A stretch of 37,672 nt of DNA. Origin: Chlorobiota bacterium (GTDB taxonomy: Bacteria; Bacteroidota; Chlorobiia; Chlorobiales; Chlorobiaceae). The position numbers and the translations under genes were made by a program. Numbering within the stretch: the first letter of the stretch is position 1; each line of letters opens with the position of its first letter. The stretch lies in the NCBI GenBank assembly GCA_016868665.1, contig VGGK01000001.1, positions 138,762 through 176,433 on the forward strand, read 5' to 3'. Of the stretch, positions 27,181 to 37,672 are shown one piece after another. The notes under the pieces are model-generated. The model saw nothing but the letters and a program-made list of their open reading frames with translations. It was not told the DNA's origin and ran no database searches.

Positions 27181-28062
27181 ATGGAAATTAAAACCGATCT
27201 CTATTTGGGTGACTGCCTGAATATCCTCAAAGAGCTACCGGACAACTCGACAGACCTGATATTCACCTCACCGCCATATGCAGATCAAAGAGAGAAAACC
27301 TATGGCGGCATTCATCACGATAAATACGTTGCATGGTTTCTGCCCATAGCCGAACAACTTTTGAGAGTCCTCAAACCAACCGGTACGTTTGTGCTCAACA
27401 TAAAGGAAAAGGTTGTCAACGGAGAAAGAAGTACCTACGTGATGGAACTCATCCTTGAGATGAAAAGAGAGCAGGGCTGGCTTTGGACCGAGGAATTCAT
27501 CTGGCATAAAAAAAACTGCTACCCCGGTAAATGGCCAAACCGGTTCAGAGACTCCTGGGAAAGACTGATCCAGTTCAATAAAAACAAACAGTTTTACATG
27601 AACCAGGAAGCCGTCATGGTTCCTATGGGCGAGTGGTCGAAAAGCCGTCTCAAGAGACTCAGCGAAACAGACAAAACCCGTGATGAATCCAAAGTCGGCA
27701 GTGGATTCGGGAAAAACATTTCAAACTGGCTTGACCGGGAAAAGGCCTATCCGACAAATGTACTCCATCTGGCAACAGAGTGTAACAACAAAAACCACAG
27801 TGCTGCATTTCCGCAGGGACTTCCGGAATGGTTCATCAAGCTCTTCACCAAAGAAGGCGACACTGTACTTGACCCGTTCATGGGCTCCGGCACAACCAAC
27901 GCTGTAGCCAAAAGAATGAAACGAAACTCGATCGGCATAGAAATTGTCCCGGAGTACTACGAGATGGTCAAAAACGAACTCGAACCGACGGAACTTTACC
28001 TGCTGGAAAAAAAGAACAGCTATGCAGCAAATCTCCCTGAACGACGTATCGACATACGTTGA
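27181..28062 (+). CDS. Type II DNA methyltransferase, beta class (probable N4-cytosine)
   Basis: Protects host sites from the neighbouring nuclease by methylating DNA with S-adenosylmethionine. 293 residues. The catalytic motif IV, DLIFTSPPYADQRE (about 25-38), comes before the SAM-binding motif I, VLDPFMGSGTTNAVA (about 223-237), the beta-class circular order. TSPPY is typical of N4-cytosine enzymes, though some N6-adenine enzymes share it. The variable region between (about 100-200, KNCYPGKWPNRFRDSWERL) should hold target recognition. The ATG at 27181 starts MEIKTDLYLGDCLNIL, a standard motif. It overlaps the nuclease gene by 41 nt, so the pair is co-translated. Confidence 0.92.
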   Translation: MEIKTDLYLGDCLNILKELPDNSTDLIFTSPPYADQREKTYGGIHHDKYVAWFLPIAEQLLRVLKPTGTFVLNIKEKVVNGERSTYVMELILEMKREQGWLWTEEFIWHKKNCYPGKWPNRFRDSWERLIQFNKNKQFYMNQEAVMVPMGEWSKSRLKRLSETDKTRDESKVGSGFGKNISNWLDREKAYPTNVLHLATECNNKNHSAAFPQGLPEWFIKLFTKEGDTVLDPFMGSGTTNAVAKRMKRNSIGIEIVPEYYEMVKNELEPTELYLLEKKNSYAANLPERRIDIR

Positions 28063-28756
28063 AAACAATATCGGCACCTTTCACCAGAAAAGGATTGCAA
28101 GCCTCGACGGCTTGAGCCTGACGAAAGTCCTGAAGAGAAAAAATCCCTACCTTTTCAAGGCGAAGTACGTTCTGACTGCTGAGGAAATCATCAGAGGCCT
28201 TGTCGATGCCCATATTTCATCGAACGAAGAAACGATTTTCGGCGACTGGCTTGAGGGACTTGCAATTTTCATCAACGGAAAAGTCTATGGAGGCTGGAAA
28301 TCAGGAATTGAGGGAATAGATCTTGAATTTGACAACAATGGGCAGCGATTCATGGTTAACATCAAGTCCGGCCCGAACTGGGGAAATGCAAGCCAGATAA
28401 AAAAAATGAAATCCGACTTCAGAATAGCCGCCAAAACGCTTCGTACCAGTAATTCAGGCCTGCAGGTTGTTGCGATCAACGGCTGTTGCTATGGAAAGAG
28501 CACCAATCCCGATAAAGGGGACTATTTCAAGTACTGCGGTCAAAGATTTTGGGAATTCATCTCTGGAAATGCCGAACTTTACATAGAAATCATCGAACCA
28601 TTGGGACATAAAGCGAAAGATAAAAACGATGAATTTCAGCAATCCTACGCCCAGAGAATCAACATGTTCACGAAGACCTTCACCTGCGAATACTGCAAGG
28701 ACAACGGAGCCATCGACTGGAAAAAACTCGTGGAATTCAACTCGTCGGCCCGGTGA
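28022..28756 (+). CDS. Type II restriction endonuclease, PmeII-like
   Basis: Partner nuclease of the upstream methyltransferase. 244 residues from the ATG at 28022 (MQQISLNDVSTYVENNIGTF), inside the end of the methyltransferase gene. Blocks that resemble the PmeII-type family: KVLKRKNPYLFKAKYVLTA, DAHISSNEETIFGDWLEGLA, VYGGWKSGIEGIDLEF and FMVNIKSGPNWGNASQIKKM. The PD-(D/E)xK-like core is probably E...GID...(x)IK: Asp in GIDLEF and Lys in NIKSG, with N in place of the usual E/D of ExK. A CEYC pair near the C-terminus (TCEYCKDNG) is isolated. Cleavage site unknown. The family name is from memory of similar sequences. Confidence 0.82.
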   Translation: MQQISLNDVSTYVENNIGTFHQKRIASLDGLSLTKVLKRKNPYLFKAKYVLTAEEIIRGLVDAHISSNEETIFGDWLEGLAIFINGKVYGGWKSGIEGIDLEFDNNGQRFMVNIKSGPNWGNASQIKKMKSDFRIAAKTLRTSNSGLQVVAINGCCYGKSTNPDKGDYFKYCGQRFWEFISGNAELYIEIIEPLGHKAKDKNDEFQQSYAQRINMFTKTFTCEYCKDNGAIDWKKLVEFNSSAR

Positions 28757-29132: not shown

Positions 29133-30065
29133 ATGGCTGTACCATATAATAAAAGGGCTCTCGACCATGAAGAACAACTGCTGCTCCTCAAAGAACGTGG
29201 CCTCGGTGTTGAAGATGAGAGAAAAGCCCTCCATTTGCTCCGGCATATCAGCTATTACCGCTTAAGCGGTTATTGGTACCCTCTGCTGCAAGAACCAAAA
29301 TGCGAGCATTATTTTAAAGATAATGCGACGTTCAGTACCGCATTCAGGCTCTATTGCTTTGACCGGGAGTTGCGGCAACTGGTACTTGGAGAAATTGAGA
29401 AGATCGAGGTTGCCGTAAGAGCACAGATGATCAATACGTTATCGCTTGCATTCGGGCCTTTATGGTACACCGATTCGGCCCGGTTTAATAATCATAAGTT
29501 TCGGCATGACAAGATCATACAGAAACTGGAGGATGATTTTGTGAATAGCCAGGAAGAATTCATTCTGGCGTTCAGAAAGAAATATTCGGATCCTTACCCG
29601 CCCTGCTGGATGATTATGGAAATTGCATCCTTCGGGCAGATATCCACCTTGTATTCCGATATGAGGGGAGGAAAAAGCAAACGGATTATAGCGAAGCATT
29701 TCGGGCTCGACGATACAACGTTTGCCTCGTGGCTTCACTGCATTGTTTACTTGCGTAACCTTTGTGCACACCATTCCCGATTCTGGAACCGGGAATTCGG
29801 GGTGAGCCCTCAGATTCCAAACCGCCCGTTGAAGAGTTGGTTGTCAGAAGACACCATAAAGGCGATCAGAGGCGCAAACAGTGGAAAGTCGAATAACCGT
29901 GCATTTTACATGCTTTCGATTCTGTTGTACTTCCTGCAGACCGTCAATCCGAAAAGTACGTTCAGGCAGAAGTTTTGCAGCCTGACGAGTAAATATCCAA
30001 ACATTGATCTTGCAGCCATGGGGTTTCCGGCAACACTGGACAGCGAGACGTTGTGGAATGGTTAA
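29133..30065 (+). CDS. Abi_2 family abortive-infection protein (AbiD/AbiF type, HEPN)
   Basis: Predicted phage-defence protein that stops growth or infection by RNA cleavage. 310 residues. N-terminal block MAVPYNKRALDHEEQLLLLKERGL and HISYYRLSGYWYPL is the Abi_2 signature, FDRELRQLVLGEIEKIEVAV the central helix, and YLRNLCAHHSRFWNREF (about 205-221) contains R-x4-H (RNLCAH), the catalytic motif of HEPN ribonucleases. No partner antitoxin or AbiE-like gene is adjacent. The ATG at 29133 directly follows a terminator hairpin. It converges on the UDG-like gene with a 70-nt gap. Confidence 0.88.
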   Translation: MAVPYNKRALDHEEQLLLLKERGLGVEDERKALHLLRHISYYRLSGYWYPLLQEPKCEHYFKDNATFSTAFRLYCFDRELRQLVLGEIEKIEVAVRAQMINTLSLAFGPLWYTDSARFNNHKFRHDKIIQKLEDDFVNSQEEFILAFRKKYSDPYPPCWMIMEIASFGQISTLYSDMRGGKSKRIIAKHFGLDDTTFASWLHCIVYLRNLCAHHSRFWNREFGVSPQIPNRPLKSWLSEDTIKAIRGANSGKSNNRAFYMLSILLYFLQTVNPKSTFRQKFCSLTSKYPNIDLAAMGFPATLDSETLWNG

Positions 30066-30135: not shown

Positions 30136-31167
30136 TTATAAGGGCGGAATTATTTCGAAATCATAGATGTCGTTTCCATAGCTGAATGACTGCTTCCCTG
30201 CCTGTTTCAGTTTAATTCGAAACGGGATATGTTTGCTATCAGGAAGACCCAATACCTTGAACGCCTGCCTGAGTGAGGTGAAATCGCCAATAAACGTGCC
30301 GTGTCGGTGCACCTTGACAGCATTCTTTTGCATCCTCTTTTTGCGGATTTCAGGATCTTCCCAGCTTTTTCTTACACCTTCTGAAATATTCTGATTTTTC
30401 TGCCCTTCATGAAAACCAAACACTTCCCCTCTGTTTTTTTCATTTCTGATTGTGTCAACCTGGATAGCCGATGTCCCTGTAACTTCATAAGTAGTATGAT
30501 GACTTGTTGACAAGTCAGGGAGTGTGTTGAAGACCGAAGGTGTTTCTATCTGCAATATTTTTCCTGCCTGTATGAACTTATCAGCGAGATCCTTTTTGCG
30601 ACGATCCCGTTCTATTGGGTCTTTAGTCCAAAAGGCCCGGGAACTGGTGTGATATGTATCTAATACCCGTAGCCTTGACATTTCGGGATATTTTCTCAAT
30701 AATCGTTTCCACAGATGCTTTGCTTCTCCACCATGCAGCATCAGAACAGTAAGGTTGGGCAGCAAATCGATAATTGTTTTCAGAGGCAGGATGCCGGCTT
30801 CGAGCTCTGATGGTGTTGGCTTTTTGTTGATGTACCATGGGTAGGCGTTCCATGGTACAATATCTTCTGCAGGAATGTTAACCCCGGCAAAAAGGTTGCT
30901 GAGTCTTTCAGCTGTTGAGTCATCATTTTCCATGCAAATGAACCCGCTTCCTCCGATTTTATCCTGGGTTTTGGGGCCAGGGTCTCTCAGAACACTCAAT
31001 AAACGGGCCTTGATACCGCCGTACATAGGCGGCACGTAAGGAACAGAATCGTTTCCGGCAACCTTGCGCAGCGTATCGACGTATTGATTGATCGGCGCAA
31101 TATGATGATCAAACCGATGCTCCCATTGCCGTTGGCGGAATTCAGGGTTTCTCATGAGACGGGCCAT
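30136..31167 (-). CDS. Uracil-DNA-glycosylase-fold protein with extra basic C-terminal domain
   Basis: About 343 residues. Residues about 45-205 look like the UDG superfamily: LLSVLRDPGPKTQDK (motif A, like xNPGxxS/xDPGxxT), FICMENDDSTAERL, DIVPWNAYPWYINKKPTPSE, VLMLHGGEAKHLWKRL (central strand) and LDTYHTSSRAFW (motif B position, with His). The usual Ung motif GQDPYH is absent, so this is not housekeeping Ung. Residues about 240-343 are Lys/Arg/Ser-rich: NISEGVRKSWEDPEIRKKRM resembles the small NUMOD3-like DNA-binding repeats of homing endonucleases, followed by FTSLRQAFKVLGLPDSKHI. The start is ATG 31167; GTG at 31173 is possible. It lies between Abi and jetD, which suggests a defence role such as excision of modified bases in invading DNA (inference). 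Confidence 0.7.
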   Translation of the reverse strand: MARLMRNPEFRQRQWEHRFDHHIAPINQYVDTLRKVAGNDSVPYVPPMYGGIKARLLSVLRDPGPKTQDKIGGSGFICMENDDSTAERLSNLFAGVNIPAEDIVPWNAYPWYINKKPTPSELEAGILPLKTIIDLLPNLTVLMLHGGEAKHLWKRLLRKYPEMSRLRVLDTYHTSSRAFWTKDPIERDRRKKDLADKFIQAGKILQIETPSVFNTLPDLSTSHHTTYEVTGTSAIQVDTIRNEKNRGEVFGFHEGQKNQNISEGVRKSWEDPEIRKKRMQKNAVKVHRHGTFIGDFTSLRQAFKVLGLPDSKHIPFRIKLKQAGKQSFSYGNDIYDFEIIPPL

Positions 31168-31368
31168 TGTCACTGCTTTTTGTTATGGATATAATTGAGA
31201 TTCTTGTCCAAACTTCGGCACATCCCTCTAACTCAAACGGCTGAATTCTCCAATTTCCGCTGAACCAAAACACGTAATACGGTAAAGGTACTGATTTTTT
31301 CGGTAAAAAAAGGAAAAGGAGGCACAGAACCTGCCGACCAACCGATACTGCGCTTCGTCGGAAAAACG

Positions 31369-32553
31369 TCACAATGTCGAGAGCGCAGCAACCAGATAAT
31401 CGAACCCGATCCGTTCCTGTTCCAGCCTTACCCGCTCACCCAGGCTGCCGCTGCGCAAATCGTCGTAGAGCGCCATTTCCTCACCGGTCAGCCTCGTCAG
31501 CTCCACAGTCTCGGGTGATGGCTCAACGCCCCAGAGCGTTCTGTGAGTCAGAAGCGTCTCTTTGTCCATAAGCAGGGAAACTGCCTCGGGAAAGAACCTG
31601 CGCAACTGATTGAGAATGGCGAAACCATGGGTATCGATGTCCCCCCAGTAATGGATCTTCCGCTCATGAAGCCAGTGGGCGGTGGCGAGATTTTCGAAAC
31701 CGTAACCGGCCCCGAAAATCACCATCGACCGGGAAACAGGGGGAAATGCAAGGAAGTTGATTTCGTTTTCGGTAATGAACACCGTTTCAATCGCAAGGTC
31801 CAATCCGGCAAACGCGCCCTCTGTCAGGGCGATATCCTGATCGGCATCCACCGGCAGGAGAGCCAGTTCGGGATCGAGAATTCGGAACCGTACCCTCAGG
31901 GGTTTATCCCTGAATCCGTAACGACGACAGAATCCGGCAGCGCCTGAAGCCCCGGCATCGGTGGGGTCAATCCGCTCCGGCGGAAGAGCGAGGTCGAACA
32001 GCTCGCCCAAAACGCCACGGTGAACCTCGATAAACTTGCTGTGCACGCCCGGCAGGTCGATCTGCCGCAGATAGATATCCGGACGCGGATGCATCTGCAG
32101 CCATGCGACGATCTGCAGAAGTTTCGGCCACGACCCGGCAAGTTCCAGCGTACGCAACGGACGCTTCCGGAGCCACGGAATGAGTTCCGGTTTCGTTTCG
32201 CGAGTCAGGGAAAGGAGATCGGCAAAGCGTTCGGCATCGCGAACCTTGCCGATGAAGGCCAATGCATCATCGATCGAATCGATCCATATCTCCGCCGGAA
32301 TCTCGTTGACTCCGAGAACGCGATGATTGAGCGTGCGCCAGACAATCCGGTAGTGCTTCGCCGAACCGGACAGCTGCGCAATCCAGTCGCGCACATCGGA
32401 AAACGATTCGCTGAGCTGCCTCGAATCCGGCCCTTTCAGGGTCAGACGCCGTGGAAACAACTCATCGTCTCCCATCAGAGAGGAGAGCAGAAGTCCTCGA
32501 TCCCAGAGCTTCTGCACATGGGTACGCAGATCAGCCGGAGTCGTCCAGTTCAC
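31369..32553 (-). CDS. jetD: Wadjet type I nuclease subunit JetD (DUF3322/DUF2220)
   Basis: DNA-cleaving subunit of the Wadjet anti-plasmid complex. 394 residues. The N-terminal half (about 1-180) is the DUF3322 arm (MNWTTPADLRTHVQKLWDRG, YRIVWRTLNHRVLGVNEIPAE). The C-terminal half is the DUF2220 TOPRIM-like nuclease: VFITENEINFLAFP with E262/E264, then IHYWGDIDTHGFAILNQLR with D305 and D307, placed to bind the catalytic metals. The start is GTG; its GTG overlaps the TGA of jetC (GTGA), indicating coupled translation. All four jet genes run on the minus strand. No clear terminator follows in the 195 nt before the UDG-like gene. Confidence 0.94.
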   Translation of the reverse strand: MNWTTPADLRTHVQKLWDRGLLLSSLMGDDELFPRRLTLKGPDSRQLSESFSDVRDWIAQLSGSAKHYRIVWRTLNHRVLGVNEIPAEIWIDSIDDALAFIGKVRDAERFADLLSLTRETKPELIPWLRKRPLRTLELAGSWPKLLQIVAWLQMHPRPDIYLRQIDLPGVHSKFIEVHRGVLGELFDLALPPERIDPTDAGASGAAGFCRRYGFRDKPLRVRFRILDPELALLPVDADQDIALTEGAFAGLDLAIETVFITENEINFLAFPPVSRSMVIFGAGYGFENLATAHWLHERKIHYWGDIDTHGFAILNQLRRFFPEAVSLLMDKETLLTHRTLWGVEPSPETVELTRLTGEEMALYDDLRSGSLGERVRLEQERIGFDYLVAALSTL

Positions 32554-35500
32554 CCCGGTTCTCCCTGTTTGGCAGCGCGATACTCCTCGATGGTGAGGTT
32601 GCGCAGCACCGAAGCCCGTCCATCCTCGTTACAGACAAAACCCACTCCGGAAACATAGGGCTCGATGATATGGATTTTCTGCAGCGGGGTTACGATGAGC
32701 AGCTGCAGGTTGAGCTGCGCGAAAAGCTGCAGGCCGTACTGTGCGGACTCGTCGGAACCGCGCCCGAACGCCTCGTCGATAACCACGAACCGGAACGACC
32801 GCGAACGCACCGCGCCCCACTCCAGACCGAACTGATAGGCAAGGCTTGCCGCAAGCACCGTATAGGCAAGCTTCTCCTTCTGCCCGCCGGATTTGCCTCC
32901 CGAATCGGCATAGTGCTCATGCTCGCTGTCATCTTCGCGCCACCGTTCGCTCGCCGCGAAGACGAACCAGTTGCGTACGTCCGTAACCTTGGCGGTCCAG
33001 CGCCGGTCGAGGTCCGCATGTTCCTCGCGACCGCGGAACCGGTCGATAATCCGCCGCACCTGAAGGAATTTCGCTTCGGAGTACTGCGCGTCATCCGAAC
33101 CGGTCAGGGACCCCTCGGTGCAGGCACGCAGTTCCGACTGAAAGTCACGGATATCGGCATCGAGGCTCATCTGCGCTTCGAGGGTGATGTAGCGGCCGGG
33201 ATTGTAATCGATCTGCGTGAGCGACTCGTTGATGCGGGCAATGCGCTCTCTGATACTCTCCCGTTCACGGGCGAGCTGCGACTGAAAATTGGCGACTTCC
33301 CGGATGGTGTTCTCGTTGAGCAGCTCCTTGAACCGTCCCTCGAAACGAGGCAGGTCGTCGGCCCGGAGCTGATCGAGCATCGAACGGTACTCGAACCCGG
33401 CGGCAATGTTCACATCGACCTCGCGGGTTTCAAGTTTCCACTCCTCCTTATACTCGGTCATCGCCCTGATGATCTTTTCGCCTATGCGGGAGAGTTTTTT
33501 ATCTTCCGAGTCGATTCTGTTCTGCAGAAAATCGCGCATTTCCCGTTCGCGGTTGTCGCATGACTCCACCGTCAGAGGCTGCACGCCAAGCGCTTCGTCG
33601 CGCATCGACTCGAGCAGGGCGAACTGCCCCGCTGCCTCAGTACCGGCTTCATCCCGCAGTGCCTCCGCCTGCTGCCGCAACTCCCGGAACCCGCTGATCT
33701 TCTGCTCGGTTTTCGACCGCTTGTCCTTGCGTTCGTCGAGCTGGAGCTCCGTTGCCTGCAGTTCGCCCTCCACTTCGGCAAGCTGCCCGGCAAGGGTTTT
33801 CAGAATATCCGAAGCCGCTTCGAGATCACGTTTTTCCGCTTCGAGCCTGGCAATGGCGACGGCCAGCGGCTGCCAGTCGAGATCGCGGAAATCGGGGTAC
33901 TCGTCGAGCTTTGAAAGGACGGTGAGCCGATCCTTCAGCGCCTTCTGCTCCTGCTGCAACGCATGGATCCTGCCGGCAAGTCCGGCAAGATGCTTCTCCT
34001 GCCGTGCGGCACTCTCTTCGAGCGCCGCGATCTTGGCGGCATTGCTCCACCCCAGCACATAGCGACTGCGGTCGTCAATCGGATGACGGTCGTCTTTTTC
34101 GTGGCGTTCACCCGGAGCCTTGATCTGGCCGGTGATGGTAACAGCTTTTTTCTCGCGCCGGAACTCCTCCTGATCACTGCAGCATACCAGATCGAAACGA
34201 TTGGCGATCTCACGCTCCATCCAGTCGAAATAGGGCGAATCGGCCTTGATGGCGATCTTGCGTACGAGAGAGGCTTCATGATCAGGTTGCCGACCCGACT
34301 GCGACTGCTGCCGTACCCGGAAATAGACCAGCCTTCCGTGAAGGTGGGTACGATCCACCCATGCCGCAACCGCGCCGTAATGACGGTCAGGCACCAGCAG
34401 GGAGAGGCCGAAGTTCCGTAAAAGGCGTTCGACAGCACCTTCCCACTCCCGCTCCTCTTCGAGAACCTGCAGCAGCTCTCCGGCAAAGGGCATCTCATCT
34501 TCGGCAATATCCAGCGCATGGCAGAGCGAACGACGAATGGCGACCTGCTTTTCATCGATGTTGCTGCGCCGCGCTTTCAGCCCCCGGATTTCGGCTGTCA
34601 GCCGCTCATGCTCCTGCCGCCCCTGGGTAAAGAGGACGCCCGCCTCGTTGAGATCGTTCTGCACCCTCGCCTCCCCGTCTGCACACTCCTCGCGCATTGT
34701 GCCATGAGTGAATCGCTGATCGAGGAACTCATCCACGTTCGATGCCGGACGTTCCCCGAGCTGACGCACAAGCTCCTCGTACCGAACCGCCTTCTGCCGG
34801 CACCGTTCAAGCTCTGACTGTTTCTGGCGGATTTCCGCACCGATATTCTCAATCCGGTCACCTCCGTTCTCGGCAATGGTGCGGCGCAACTCCCGCTCGC
34901 GCTCCTGCTTCAACCGGCGCTGTTCCTGCAGGCGCTCTACAGCCATGCTGTGTCGACTCAGCTCATCGTCAAGCGAGGCAAGACGCTTGTCGAGCAGGTC
35001 GAGCTTCAGCGTCGCGAACCAGGGGCGCAGCGATTCGCGGCATGAGCGAAGGTTCTCGGCTGTCGCGGCAATCTCATGATGACGGTCGCAATCGGCGACA
35101 AGAGGACTCAGCATCTCTATCTGACGCCGTGCCTTGAGCACAGCTTCATGAGCGCGGTTGAGGTTTTCGAAATGCTGGATAAGCGCGGCTATGCGGGGCT
35201 CCACATCGAACGGTTCGAGCATGTGCGTGCGCACGAAATCTGTCAGATTGCCCACCGACTTGAGCGAAACGGTCTGATGGAAAAGGTCGAGCGCCTGTTC
35301 GTTGTCAATGCCGAAACGGCGACGGAACCATGCCCCGTAAGGAGGAAAACTGTCGAACAGCTCGGCCCCCTCACTGCGCAGCCGTTTGCGCAGACCGGCT
35401 ATTTCAGTCCCGAAACCCGTAAAATCCCGAGCGATGGAGAGGTCGCGTTCACATGCCGTGTACAGGCGCGCAGGCTGTGCGACAGCATCCTTCATCCAGA

Positions 35501-35915
35501 AAACCTGGGCCAGGGTCACCGTCTTGTCGTACCCTTCGTTATGGAAGACGCCGAGAATCACCGAATAGCTGTTGTTGTCGCGCAGAGCGACCGGCTTCGC
35601 TCCGCCAATGCTCTCCTGACGTTCCGACTTGAAATAGCCAAGCACATATGAACGCAGCGAACGCTCGCGGGTATCGGCGCCTGCCGCCTTGTTATAGGCA
35701 ATACGCTGGCTTGGCACCAGAAGCGTGGTCACGGCATCGACCAGCGTCGATTTTCCCGATCCGATATCCCCGGTCAGAAGCTCGTTTTTTCCGCCAAGCC
35801 TAAGCGTCCAGACCCGTCCGTCGAAGGTTCCCCAGTTGAAAACCTCGAGTCGCTGCAATCGGAAACCGGCCAGACGATCATCGGCAACAAATCCCATTTC
35901 AAGCAGCTCACTCAT
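32550..35915 (-). CDS. jetC: Wadjet type I SMC-like ATPase JetC
   Basis: MukB-like SMC motor that extrudes DNA loops in the Wadjet complex. About 1121 residues from the ATG at 35915. The N-terminal ATPase half has LTGDIGSGKSTLVDAV (Walker A, 49-57), preceded by FRLQRLEVFNWGTFDGRVW. Long coiled-coil stretches rich in Glu/Arg/Leu run from about residue 280 to 900 with a middle globular part near 430-560. The C-terminal half has SGGKSGGQKEKLAYTVLAA (ABC signature, about 1005-1023) and RFVVIDEAFGRGSDE (Walker B plus D-loop, about 1043). The true start has a GGAGGG site 5 nt upstream (35921-35926) and overlaps the jetB end by 8 nt; the longer open frame to 35993 is rejected. Confidence 0.96.
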   Translation of the reverse strand: MSELLEMGFVADDRLAGFRLQRLEVFNWGTFDGRVWTLRLGGKNELLTGDIGSGKSTLVDAVTTLLVPSQRIAYNKAAGADTRERSLRSYVLGYFKSERQESIGGAKPVALRDNNSYSVILGVFHNEGYDKTVTLAQVFWMKDAVAQPARLYTACERDLSIARDFTGFGTEIAGLRKRLRSEGAELFDSFPPYGAWFRRRFGIDNEQALDLFHQTVSLKSVGNLTDFVRTHMLEPFDVEPRIAALIQHFENLNRAHEAVLKARRQIEMLSPLVADCDRHHEIAATAENLRSCRESLRPWFATLKLDLLDKRLASLDDELSRHSMAVERLQEQRRLKQERERELRRTIAENGGDRIENIGAEIRQKQSELERCRQKAVRYEELVRQLGERPASNVDEFLDQRFTHGTMREECADGEARVQNDLNEAGVLFTQGRQEHERLTAEIRGLKARRSNIDEKQVAIRRSLCHALDIAEDEMPFAGELLQVLEEEREWEGAVERLLRNFGLSLLVPDRHYGAVAAWVDRTHLHGRLVYFRVRQQSQSGRQPDHEASLVRKIAIKADSPYFDWMEREIANRFDLVCCSDQEEFRREKKAVTITGQIKAPGERHEKDDRHPIDDRSRYVLGWSNAAKIAALEESAARQEKHLAGLAGRIHALQQEQKALKDRLTVLSKLDEYPDFRDLDWQPLAVAIARLEAEKRDLEAASDILKTLAGQLAEVEGELQATELQLDERKDKRSKTEQKISGFRELRQQAEALRDEAGTEAAGQFALLESMRDEALGVQPLTVESCDNREREMRDFLQNRIDSEDKKLSRIGEKIIRAMTEYKEEWKLETREVDVNIAAGFEYRSMLDQLRADDLPRFEGRFKELLNENTIREVANFQSQLARERESIRERIARINESLTQIDYNPGRYITLEAQMSLDADIRDFQSELRACTEGSLTGSDDAQYSEAKFLQVRRIIDRFRGREEHADLDRRWTAKVTDVRNWFVFAASERWREDDSEHEHYADSGGKSGGQKEKLAYTVLAASLAYQFGLEWGAVRSRSFRFVVIDEAFGRGSDESAQYGLQLFAQLNLQLLIVTPLQKIHIIEPYVSGVGFVCNEDGRASVLRNLTIEEYRAAKQGEPG

Positions 35916-36543
35916 CGCGACCCTCCAACGGTTCCGCAGGTCGCTGCAGGTATTCGTCGAGCCGACGATCGAAATCCGACAGCCACTGGGCATCGATAAA
36001 AGCCTTGATGATCCGGCGGACTTCGATCATCTGCCTCTCTCCCCGCAAACGGCGGATAAAACCAAGCTCGGCGATTTTATTGAGCGAGGCATCCACCTGA
36101 TCGATCAGCCTGACCTCGTTACTGCCGGGCGGGAGGAAAATCCGTATCAGTTCGACCACCTCATCCCGCGACATAATCAGTCGCGTCTCTCCGGCACCGG
36201 CATCGAATTCGGCAAGTTTTTTGCGTAACAGCGCCAGGAGCAGGCTGACCGGATAGCTGAGCTGACGGCGTGCCATCAGGCGGGGAGTAGGAGTCGTCCC
36301 CTCTTCCTGGCTGTCAGAGCGGGAACGCAGAAAAGCATACCCTTCAGCTTCGTCGAAAATCAATTCCAGACCAAGCACCGCCACGTAATCGCGCACGGCA
36401 GCCGACAGGTTAAAGAGGGAACTCCACAACGCAGGGCTTTCGTCCTGGTAGATCACCCCCTTCAACAGGGGAATCACGACAAAAGAGAGATCCTGAGCTG
36501 CGTATTGCGAATGGCTGTTTTCTCTATCTGTATGGTTCATCAT
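35908..36543 (-). CDS. jetB: Wadjet type I subunit JetB (DUF4194, MukE/KITE-like)
   Basis: Small winged-helix subunit that binds the kleisin JetA and bridges the JetC heads. About 211 residues: LSFVVIPLLKGVIYQDESPA at the start, LFNLSAAVRDYVAVLGLELI, RRQLSYPVSLLLALLRKKLA, and VRLIDQVDASLNKIAELGFI, matching the DUF4194 pattern of short helices and a winged-helix core. The ATG at 36543 overlaps the TGA of jetA (TGATG); a second ATG follows immediately at 36540. The frame is open further up into jetA but that part has no family sequence. It overlaps jetC by 8 nt. Confidence 0.93.
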   Translation of the reverse strand: MMNHTDRENSHSQYAAQDLSFVVIPLLKGVIYQDESPALWSSLFNLSAAVRDYVAVLGLELIFDEAEGYAFLRSRSDSQEEGTTPTPRLMARRQLSYPVSLLLALLRKKLAEFDAGAGETRLIMSRDEVVELIRIFLPPGSNEVRLIDQVDASLNKIAELGFIRRLRGERQMIEVRRIIKAFIDAQWLSDFDRRLDEYLQRPAEPLEGRDE

Positions 36544-37672
36544 CAGTTTCTCAACAATATAATACGAGGCAGGGTCGCCTGCCGGGTGATGCCCGATGCA
36601 CTCTGCCATCTTACCTCATCCTCCTCACTTTCATCCACCGTCGTCCGCGGCCACTCCCCGGCAATCTGCAGATAGGCAACCAGCTCGGCCAGCCCGTTTC
36701 GCAAAGGATGACGCATCACCACCTCCCCGATGGTGATCTGGTTGCTGGTCTGAAGTTCGATCCGGATATTTCGCAGCAGCTCGGCCCTGTCGATCCTAAC
36801 CTGGGCGTAAAGAATTGCGGTATCGATTTCCGCATCCCCTTCGTCCATTGCGACGCCGGCAATCACCGGAGTGAATGGAAGCCGATAGAGCGCCCGTTCG
36901 AAAGGCAGTTCGATGAGAGCCGAAAAACCATCGAGAGGCATAAACCCGCCCGAAGGAAAATCTTCGCGCAACTCGAGCGCACGGGTTTCAATCCCGCGAA
37001 GAATATCCATGATACGCCGGTTCTCAAGCCACGCCTTGTCATCGAGAAACCTGCGCAACTGCTCGGAAAGCCGGGCCACCGTCCGCTGCGTATGCTCTCC
37101 GGCCTCCAGCCAGTCGTAGTGAACGCGCCGCAAACGGCTGTCGGGACGCATCGTCACGATCGGCGGCAGATCGAGCACCGTTTGCAGAAGCAGGCTCAAC
37201 TCCTCCTGGCGGGACTGCGACATCAGAAAATCCCAGAATGCCCTGAAACTTTTGCCCTGATCGGAATCTGCGATGGCATCGCGCTCTCCCATGATCTCCT
37301 CGAGCAGTGCGCCCTTCGATCCCTCCCAGAGGGCGATACGCTCGCGCACCCGGCGATCGAGAATGCGAAAGTTATGCTCCACCTCCCGAAAATCCGACAG
37401 CAGATCGCGCGCCAGCTGCAGAAACTGCTGGAACCGATCCTTAAGAGCCGTATCGTCGAGCATCGATATTTCTCCGGCAAGAATGCGCTCGATTTCGGCA
37501 TCGATCTCATGACGACGCTCCTGAAGTTCGGCAATCCGCACCTCGGGATCTGCCTGGCTTCCCGTACTCATCTGGCGCAACAGCTCAAACAGGGTGATCA
37601 GCCGGGACTCCGTGCCGACAAAAGCCCGCTCCGTCAGCCCCTCAAGCCAGGCCAGCGCCTTTTCGGTTGCCG
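36543..37672 (-). CDS. jetA: Wadjet type I kleisin-like subunit JetA (DUF3375), cut by right edge
   Basis: MukF/kleisin-like subunit that closes the JetC ring. About 375 C-terminal residues are visible and the frame runs on past base 37672 (TEKALAWLEGLTERAFVGTE), so the N-terminal roughly 100 residues are missing; full DUF3375 proteins are about 480-500 residues. Helical, charged: RIAELQERRHEIDAEIERIL, LLSDFREVEHNFRILDRRVR, SFRAFWDFLMSQSRQEELS, then a beta-rich end with EVVMRHPLRNGLAELVAYLQ. Its stop overlaps the jetB start. First gene of the jetABCD operon; the promoter is outside the window. Confidence 0.93.
   Translation of the reverse strand, partial: ATEKALAWLEGLTERAFVGTESRLITLFELLRQMSTGSQADPEVRIAELQERRHEIDAEIERILAGEISMLDDTALKDRFQQFLQLARDLLSDFREVEHNFRILDRRVRERIALWEGSKGALLEEIMGERDAIADSDQGKSFRAFWDFLMSQSRQEELSLLLQTVLDLPPIVTMRPDSRLRRVHYDWLEAGEHTQRTVARLSEQLRRFLDDKAWLENRRIMDILRGIETRALELREDFPSGGFMPLDGFSALIELPFERALYRLPFTPVIAGVAMDEGDAEIDTAILYAQVRIDRAELLRNIRIELQTSNQITIGEVVMRHPLRNGLAELVAYLQIAGEWPRTTVDESEEDEVRWQSASGITRQATLPRIILLRN

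Follow-up and report, generated by a model that had tools for sequence, protein, structure and literature searches.

A predicted type I Wadjet operon in a green sulfur bacterium, with split forms of the operon among its relatives

In type I Wadjet systems, JetABC extrudes DNA loops, and completion of extrusion on a small circle unites the motors, whereupon JetD is activated and cuts; in one such system, an IFDR motif at the JetB N-terminus contacts JetD (PMC10586767). The MksBEFG system of Corynebacterium glutamicum, a bacterium of a different phylum from the host studied here, is encoded in the order mksFEBG; its nuclease, MksG, binds the kleisin MksF, and mutation of MksG E236 and D279 drastically impairs cleavage (PMC10123090). 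We analyzed a window of 37,672 nucleotides from a Chlorobiota bacterium (NCBI GenBank assembly GCA_016868665.1, contig VGGK01000001.1, positions 138,762 to 176,433), in which a sequence-only reading had placed a jetABCD operon. The locus resembles the experimentally studied JetABCD systems in its four-gene order, its kleisin and KITE subunits, the Walker A, signature, and Walker B motifs of its SMC ATPase, and the glutamate (the E248 equivalent) and DxD of its TOPRIM nuclease. However, its proteins show low sequence identity to those of the studied Gram-negative systems, and its JetB has 211 residues, against about 250 for the JetB studied, and no N-terminal IFDR.

The ORF listing places jetA, jetB, jetC, and jetD next to one another on the minus strand (31369–37670), i.e., in type I Wadjet order, as had been claimed. 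The first gene, jetA (36543–37670; kleisin, DUF3375), encodes 375 aa corresponding to residues 107–481 of a full-length homologue, its 5' end being cut by the contig end. It is followed by jetB (35908–36543; KITE subunit, DUF4194/MksE-like), which gives 211 aa when translation begins at the ATG overlapping the stop codon of jetA, by jetC (32550–35915; SMC/MukB-like ATPase), with 1121 aa from an ATG at 35915, and by jetD (31369–32553; DUF3322 plus TOPRIM JetD_C nuclease), with 394 aa from a GTG at 32553 that overlaps the jetC stop. The coordinates also bear out the three junctions of the sequence-only reading: TGATG at 36545–36541 contains both the jetA stop and the jetB start, the end of jetB and the start of jetC have 8 nt in common (35915–35908), and jetC and an intact jetD overlap by the 4 nt GTGA (32553–32550). 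Longer ORFs for jetB (from 36609) and jetC (from 35993) are upstream in-frame extensions, and the PADLOC family profiles begin at about residue 33 and residue 31 of these longer frames, respectively.

Profile searches gave type I Wadjet scores far beyond chance, and the poor scores that would have spoken against the assignment were not seen. The best PADLOC matches were JetA1 (1.5e-166), JetB1 (2.4e-88), JetC1 (0), and JetD1 (3.2e-153); type I models came top for all four proteins, with JetD3 models reaching only 1e-4 to 1e-5. Among Pfam families, JetA matched DUF3375 (1.9e-118), JetB matched DUF4194 (8.8e-46), JetC matched AAA_29 (9.7e-24) and SbcC_Walker_B (9.4e-24), and JetD matched DUF3322 (5.9e-60) and JetD_C (2.5e-58). 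Solved structures were likewise recovered, with JetC matching 8as8 (2.1e-58), JetA and JetB matching 8dk1 (1.2e-17 and 1.7e-7, respectively), and JetD matching MksG of C. glutamicum best (8b7f, 3.7e-18), followed by the JetD chains 7til (8e-9) and 8q72 (2.8e-8); these sequence matches suffice to establish the fold. Together, the type-specific models, the gene order, the solved JetA/B/C/D and MksG chains, and the catalytic residues uphold the proposed identity, and we assign the operon with high confidence to type I Wadjet (JetABCD, also MksFEBG), a predicted loop-extruding, circle-cutting system. As a Wadjet it is ordinary in kind, a further member of type I.

In one respect, the contact between JetB and JetD, the locus may depart from the arrangement described for a studied type I system. 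IFDR was found neither in the window JetB nor in 52 related JetB sequences; the motif is a trait of a PA14-like subgroup, not defining for type I, and the window JetB lacks it. Since it is missing across the whole JetB subfamily, JetD docking may differ here, and by analogy with MksG on MksF, the window JetD may dock on the kleisin.

From characterized homologues we infer motor assembly, extrusion, and cutting as follows. A loop-extruding motor would be built from JetC dimers together with the JetA kleisin and the JetB KITE subunit. A dimer-of-dimers would have two such motors, which on a small closed circle would meet once all of the DNA had been reeled in, and this meeting would activate the JetD TOPRIM nuclease, so that the circle is cut. 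An active SMC nuclease might instead be aimed mainly at other small circular DNA, e.g., circularized phage or satellite genomes, and not at plasmids. The operon does lie among anti-phage genes (restriction–modification and AbiD), and in a close relative, the Wadjet operon has as neighbors (L030, 15802–23307) an integrase, a D5-like primase, and a phage terminase small subunit, a set that resembles a phage satellite. We nevertheless consider this target unlikely, as small circular plasmids are the target of characterized type I systems, whatever the plasmid sequence (PMC10586767). Our preferred reading is that, in its host, the operon most probably makes small plasmids and other circular DNA less persistent.

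The anti-phage genes just mentioned make up, with the operon, a small defense island. An N4/N6 DNA methyltransferase gene (27181–28062, plus strand) overlaps, and is paired with, the gene for an EcoO109I-type restriction endonuclease (27944–28756, plus strand); the partner of EcoO109I itself is a C5 methylase, whereas that in the window is of the N4/N6 type. An AbiD/Abi_2 protein is encoded at 29133–30065 (plus strand), and a protein of 345 aa resembling the UDG superfamily at 30136–31173 (minus strand), after jetD. The C-terminal domain of this UDG-like protein, of about 80 residues, also occurs in many proteins of Pseudomonas and Escherichia phages (phrog_4730), and the protein may be a defense glycosylase comparable to Brig1 (PMC11078745). 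Both the UDG-like and the AbiD gene are missing from the two nearest relatives, where the endonuclease gene comes directly after jetD. A search of the window and of two relatives for attachment-site repeats around the island, in the form of duplicated ssrA 3' ends, found none.

We then considered whether the operon is intact. All of the active-site motifs named by the sequence-only reading, i.e., Walker A, ABC signature, Walker B, and a TOPRIM-like E...DxD, are present and conserved in aligned relatives. In JetC, Walker A (GDIGSGKST) occupies residues 49–57, the ABC signature (GGKSGGQKEK) residues 1006–1015, and Walker B (RFVVIDEAFGRGS, containing VVIDE) residues 1042–1054. The signature and Walker B are identical in 31 of 31 aligned copies, and Walker A is identical among the aligned relatives except in one copy, where it is cut by an assembly gap. 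The JetD metal site consists of E262, D305, and D307, with E262 and the DxD conserved in all 39 alignment rows. E262 aligns with the position that is altered in the JetD(E248A) structure from E. coli, and by count along the 8b7f alignment, E262 and D305 lie opposite the catalytic MksG residues E236 and D279, a numbering that uses an inferred constant offset of 106 for the 8b7f fusion tag. Against the two nearest relatives, dN/dS was 0.076–0.080 for jetA, 0.10–0.18 for jetB, 0.064–0.066 for jetC, and 0.19–0.21 for jetD. Because these values are low, all four genes are kept by selection, and the range (0.06–0.21) argues for a working system.

The operon had been called complete-looking, and this holds for jetB, jetC, jetD, and the rest of jetA, but not for the start of JetA, which lies outside the assembly (100 contigs, 2.38 Mb). 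The final base of the window is also that of the contig (C1, 176,433 bases), and the truncation of jetA is an assembly gap; 375 of about 481 JetA residues are present, and the first 106 or so are absent. In known systems, this N-terminal part dimerizes the kleisin. Searches of the same genome's contigs with the DUF3375 profile, a full-length JetA, and the DNA upstream of jetA in a relative found no JetA 5' end elsewhere, returning only the known jetA piece and a contig (C84) that starts at ssrA. In the closest relatives, the tmRNA gene ssrA lies in the DNA upstream of jetA; since this part, with ssrA, makes up one end of contig C84 in the window genome, the gap falls between ssrA and JetA residue 107. 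A stop or frameshift in the absent segment is unlikely, because jetA is full length (481 residues) and uninterrupted in the two closest relatives.

Could the locus nonetheless be a decaying, inactive remnant? The incomplete jetA, together with broken copies in relatives (a jetC frameshift in G010, a jetD frameshift in G006, and a TGA in jetA of G005), would fit such a view. However, the jetA break coincides with the contig end, all frames in the window are open, the catalytic motifs are intact, and dN/dS is low, so that we regard decay as very improbable. Least probable of all is a housekeeping chromosome-folding condensin of the MukBEF/MksBEF type with an incidental JetD, for although the MksE model also hits JetB, and the bacterial SMC model gives a weak JetC match that falls far short of its cut-off, those condensins have three subunits and no JetD/MksG nuclease, whereas here jetD is present and joined to jetC with its TOPRIM site conserved, every best match is a type I Wadjet model, and the operon sits in a variable island beside ssrA and is patchy, with DUF3375 in 23 of 37 genomes sampled from the genus and in 0 of 24 others of the order and phylum.

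Of the related loci, the nearest, in a Pelodictyon luteolum metagenome-assembled genome (MAG; 98% JetC identity) and a Chlorobium sp. MAG (95%), identify the host as a green sulfur bacterium, which the sequence-only reading had called probable. JetC identity is mostly 71–82% to other Chlorobiaceae and 63–79% to Desulfuromonadales and other groups; among other Chlorobiaceae, Desulfuromonadales, methanotrophs, and Betaproteobacteria as a whole, it is 63–98% over most or all of the length, and most loci of these four groups share the window's gene order. Within the genus, jet genes occur in about two thirds of 65 genomes (jetA in 45, jetC in 43). Plasmid-borne close relatives are rare, with one record above 60% identity.

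Several Chlorobiaceae have a split operon and extra partial copies. The window differs on both counts: its operon is contiguous, and no extra partial copies were found in it. Operon mapping covered 59 stretches of DNA from the genus, whose genomes are mostly MAGs. In four genomes, the jetAB and jetCD halves share a contig, with a distance between them of 11.9 kb in G003 (L141/L142, contig C5), 6.7 kb in G012 (L143, C6), 29.7 kb in G077 (L181/L182, C71), and 2.1 kb in G080 (L191, C24), and the intervening DNA holds unrelated genes, including toxin–antitoxin modules. Four others (G014, G018, G031, and G088) have the two halves on separate contigs. A split jetCD is preceded by the last 50–100 nt or so of jetB, a stretch that includes the bases shared with the jetC start. 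In G011, an open frame of 4425 residues at jetC was rejected as an artefact of a run of N.

Most Chlorobiaceae loci carry, about 50–70 bases before jetA, a conserved leader in which a short GC-rich hairpin precedes a T-run immediately upstream of the jetA start; this may be an attenuator or a terminator. In G031, G072, G077, and G088, the jetB end is fused to this leader and the first 43 or so jetA codons at nearly the same breakpoint (A43::B179). The resulting in-frame mini-ORF, with about 43 JetA and 34 JetB residues, stands directly before an intact jetC, with a copy of the jetA leader in front, in L041 (9600–10037) and L038 (3581–3832).

Extra copies of a jetC tail plus jetD were detected in G077 (L179/L180, C33), G085 (L183, C48), G079 (L184/L185), and G014 (L145, C39), with cargo genes between; some are complete, and others have lost most of jetD at a shared junction. 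Three complete jetD copies behind jetC tails in G077 are 0.25–0.28 synonymous changes per site apart. As this divergence is about that between species, it suggests acquisition of the extra copies rather than recent duplication. Both halves of split operons are under purifying selection: median dN/dS for jetA, jetB, jetC, and jetD was 0.05, 0.11, 0.08, and 0.15 in split operons versus 0.06, 0.11, 0.09, and 0.13 in contiguous ones. Beyond the broken copies in G006 and G010, jetC of G080 is frameshifted near its end. The split form shows clustering in the jetC tree, yet still requires several changes. We put forward, at slightly less than even confidence, the reading that in these relatives the operon works as two separately expressed halves, jetCD in several genomes having its own leader copy and a mini-ORF in which the ribosome-binding overlap of jetC is retained, and that the locus serves as a recombination platform, taking cargo and swapping nuclease alleles while the complex stays functional.

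In the literature searched, we found no published description of a type I Wadjet in Chlorobiaceae or of split Wadjet forms. The present locus thereby documents the type I system in this family, and, if active, it would be relevant to anyone maintaining small plasmids in Chlorobiaceae. The split forms in the relatives are the part worth following, since they raise the question of whether co-transcription of the four subunits is needed for assembly of the complex and for the safety of the chromosome.
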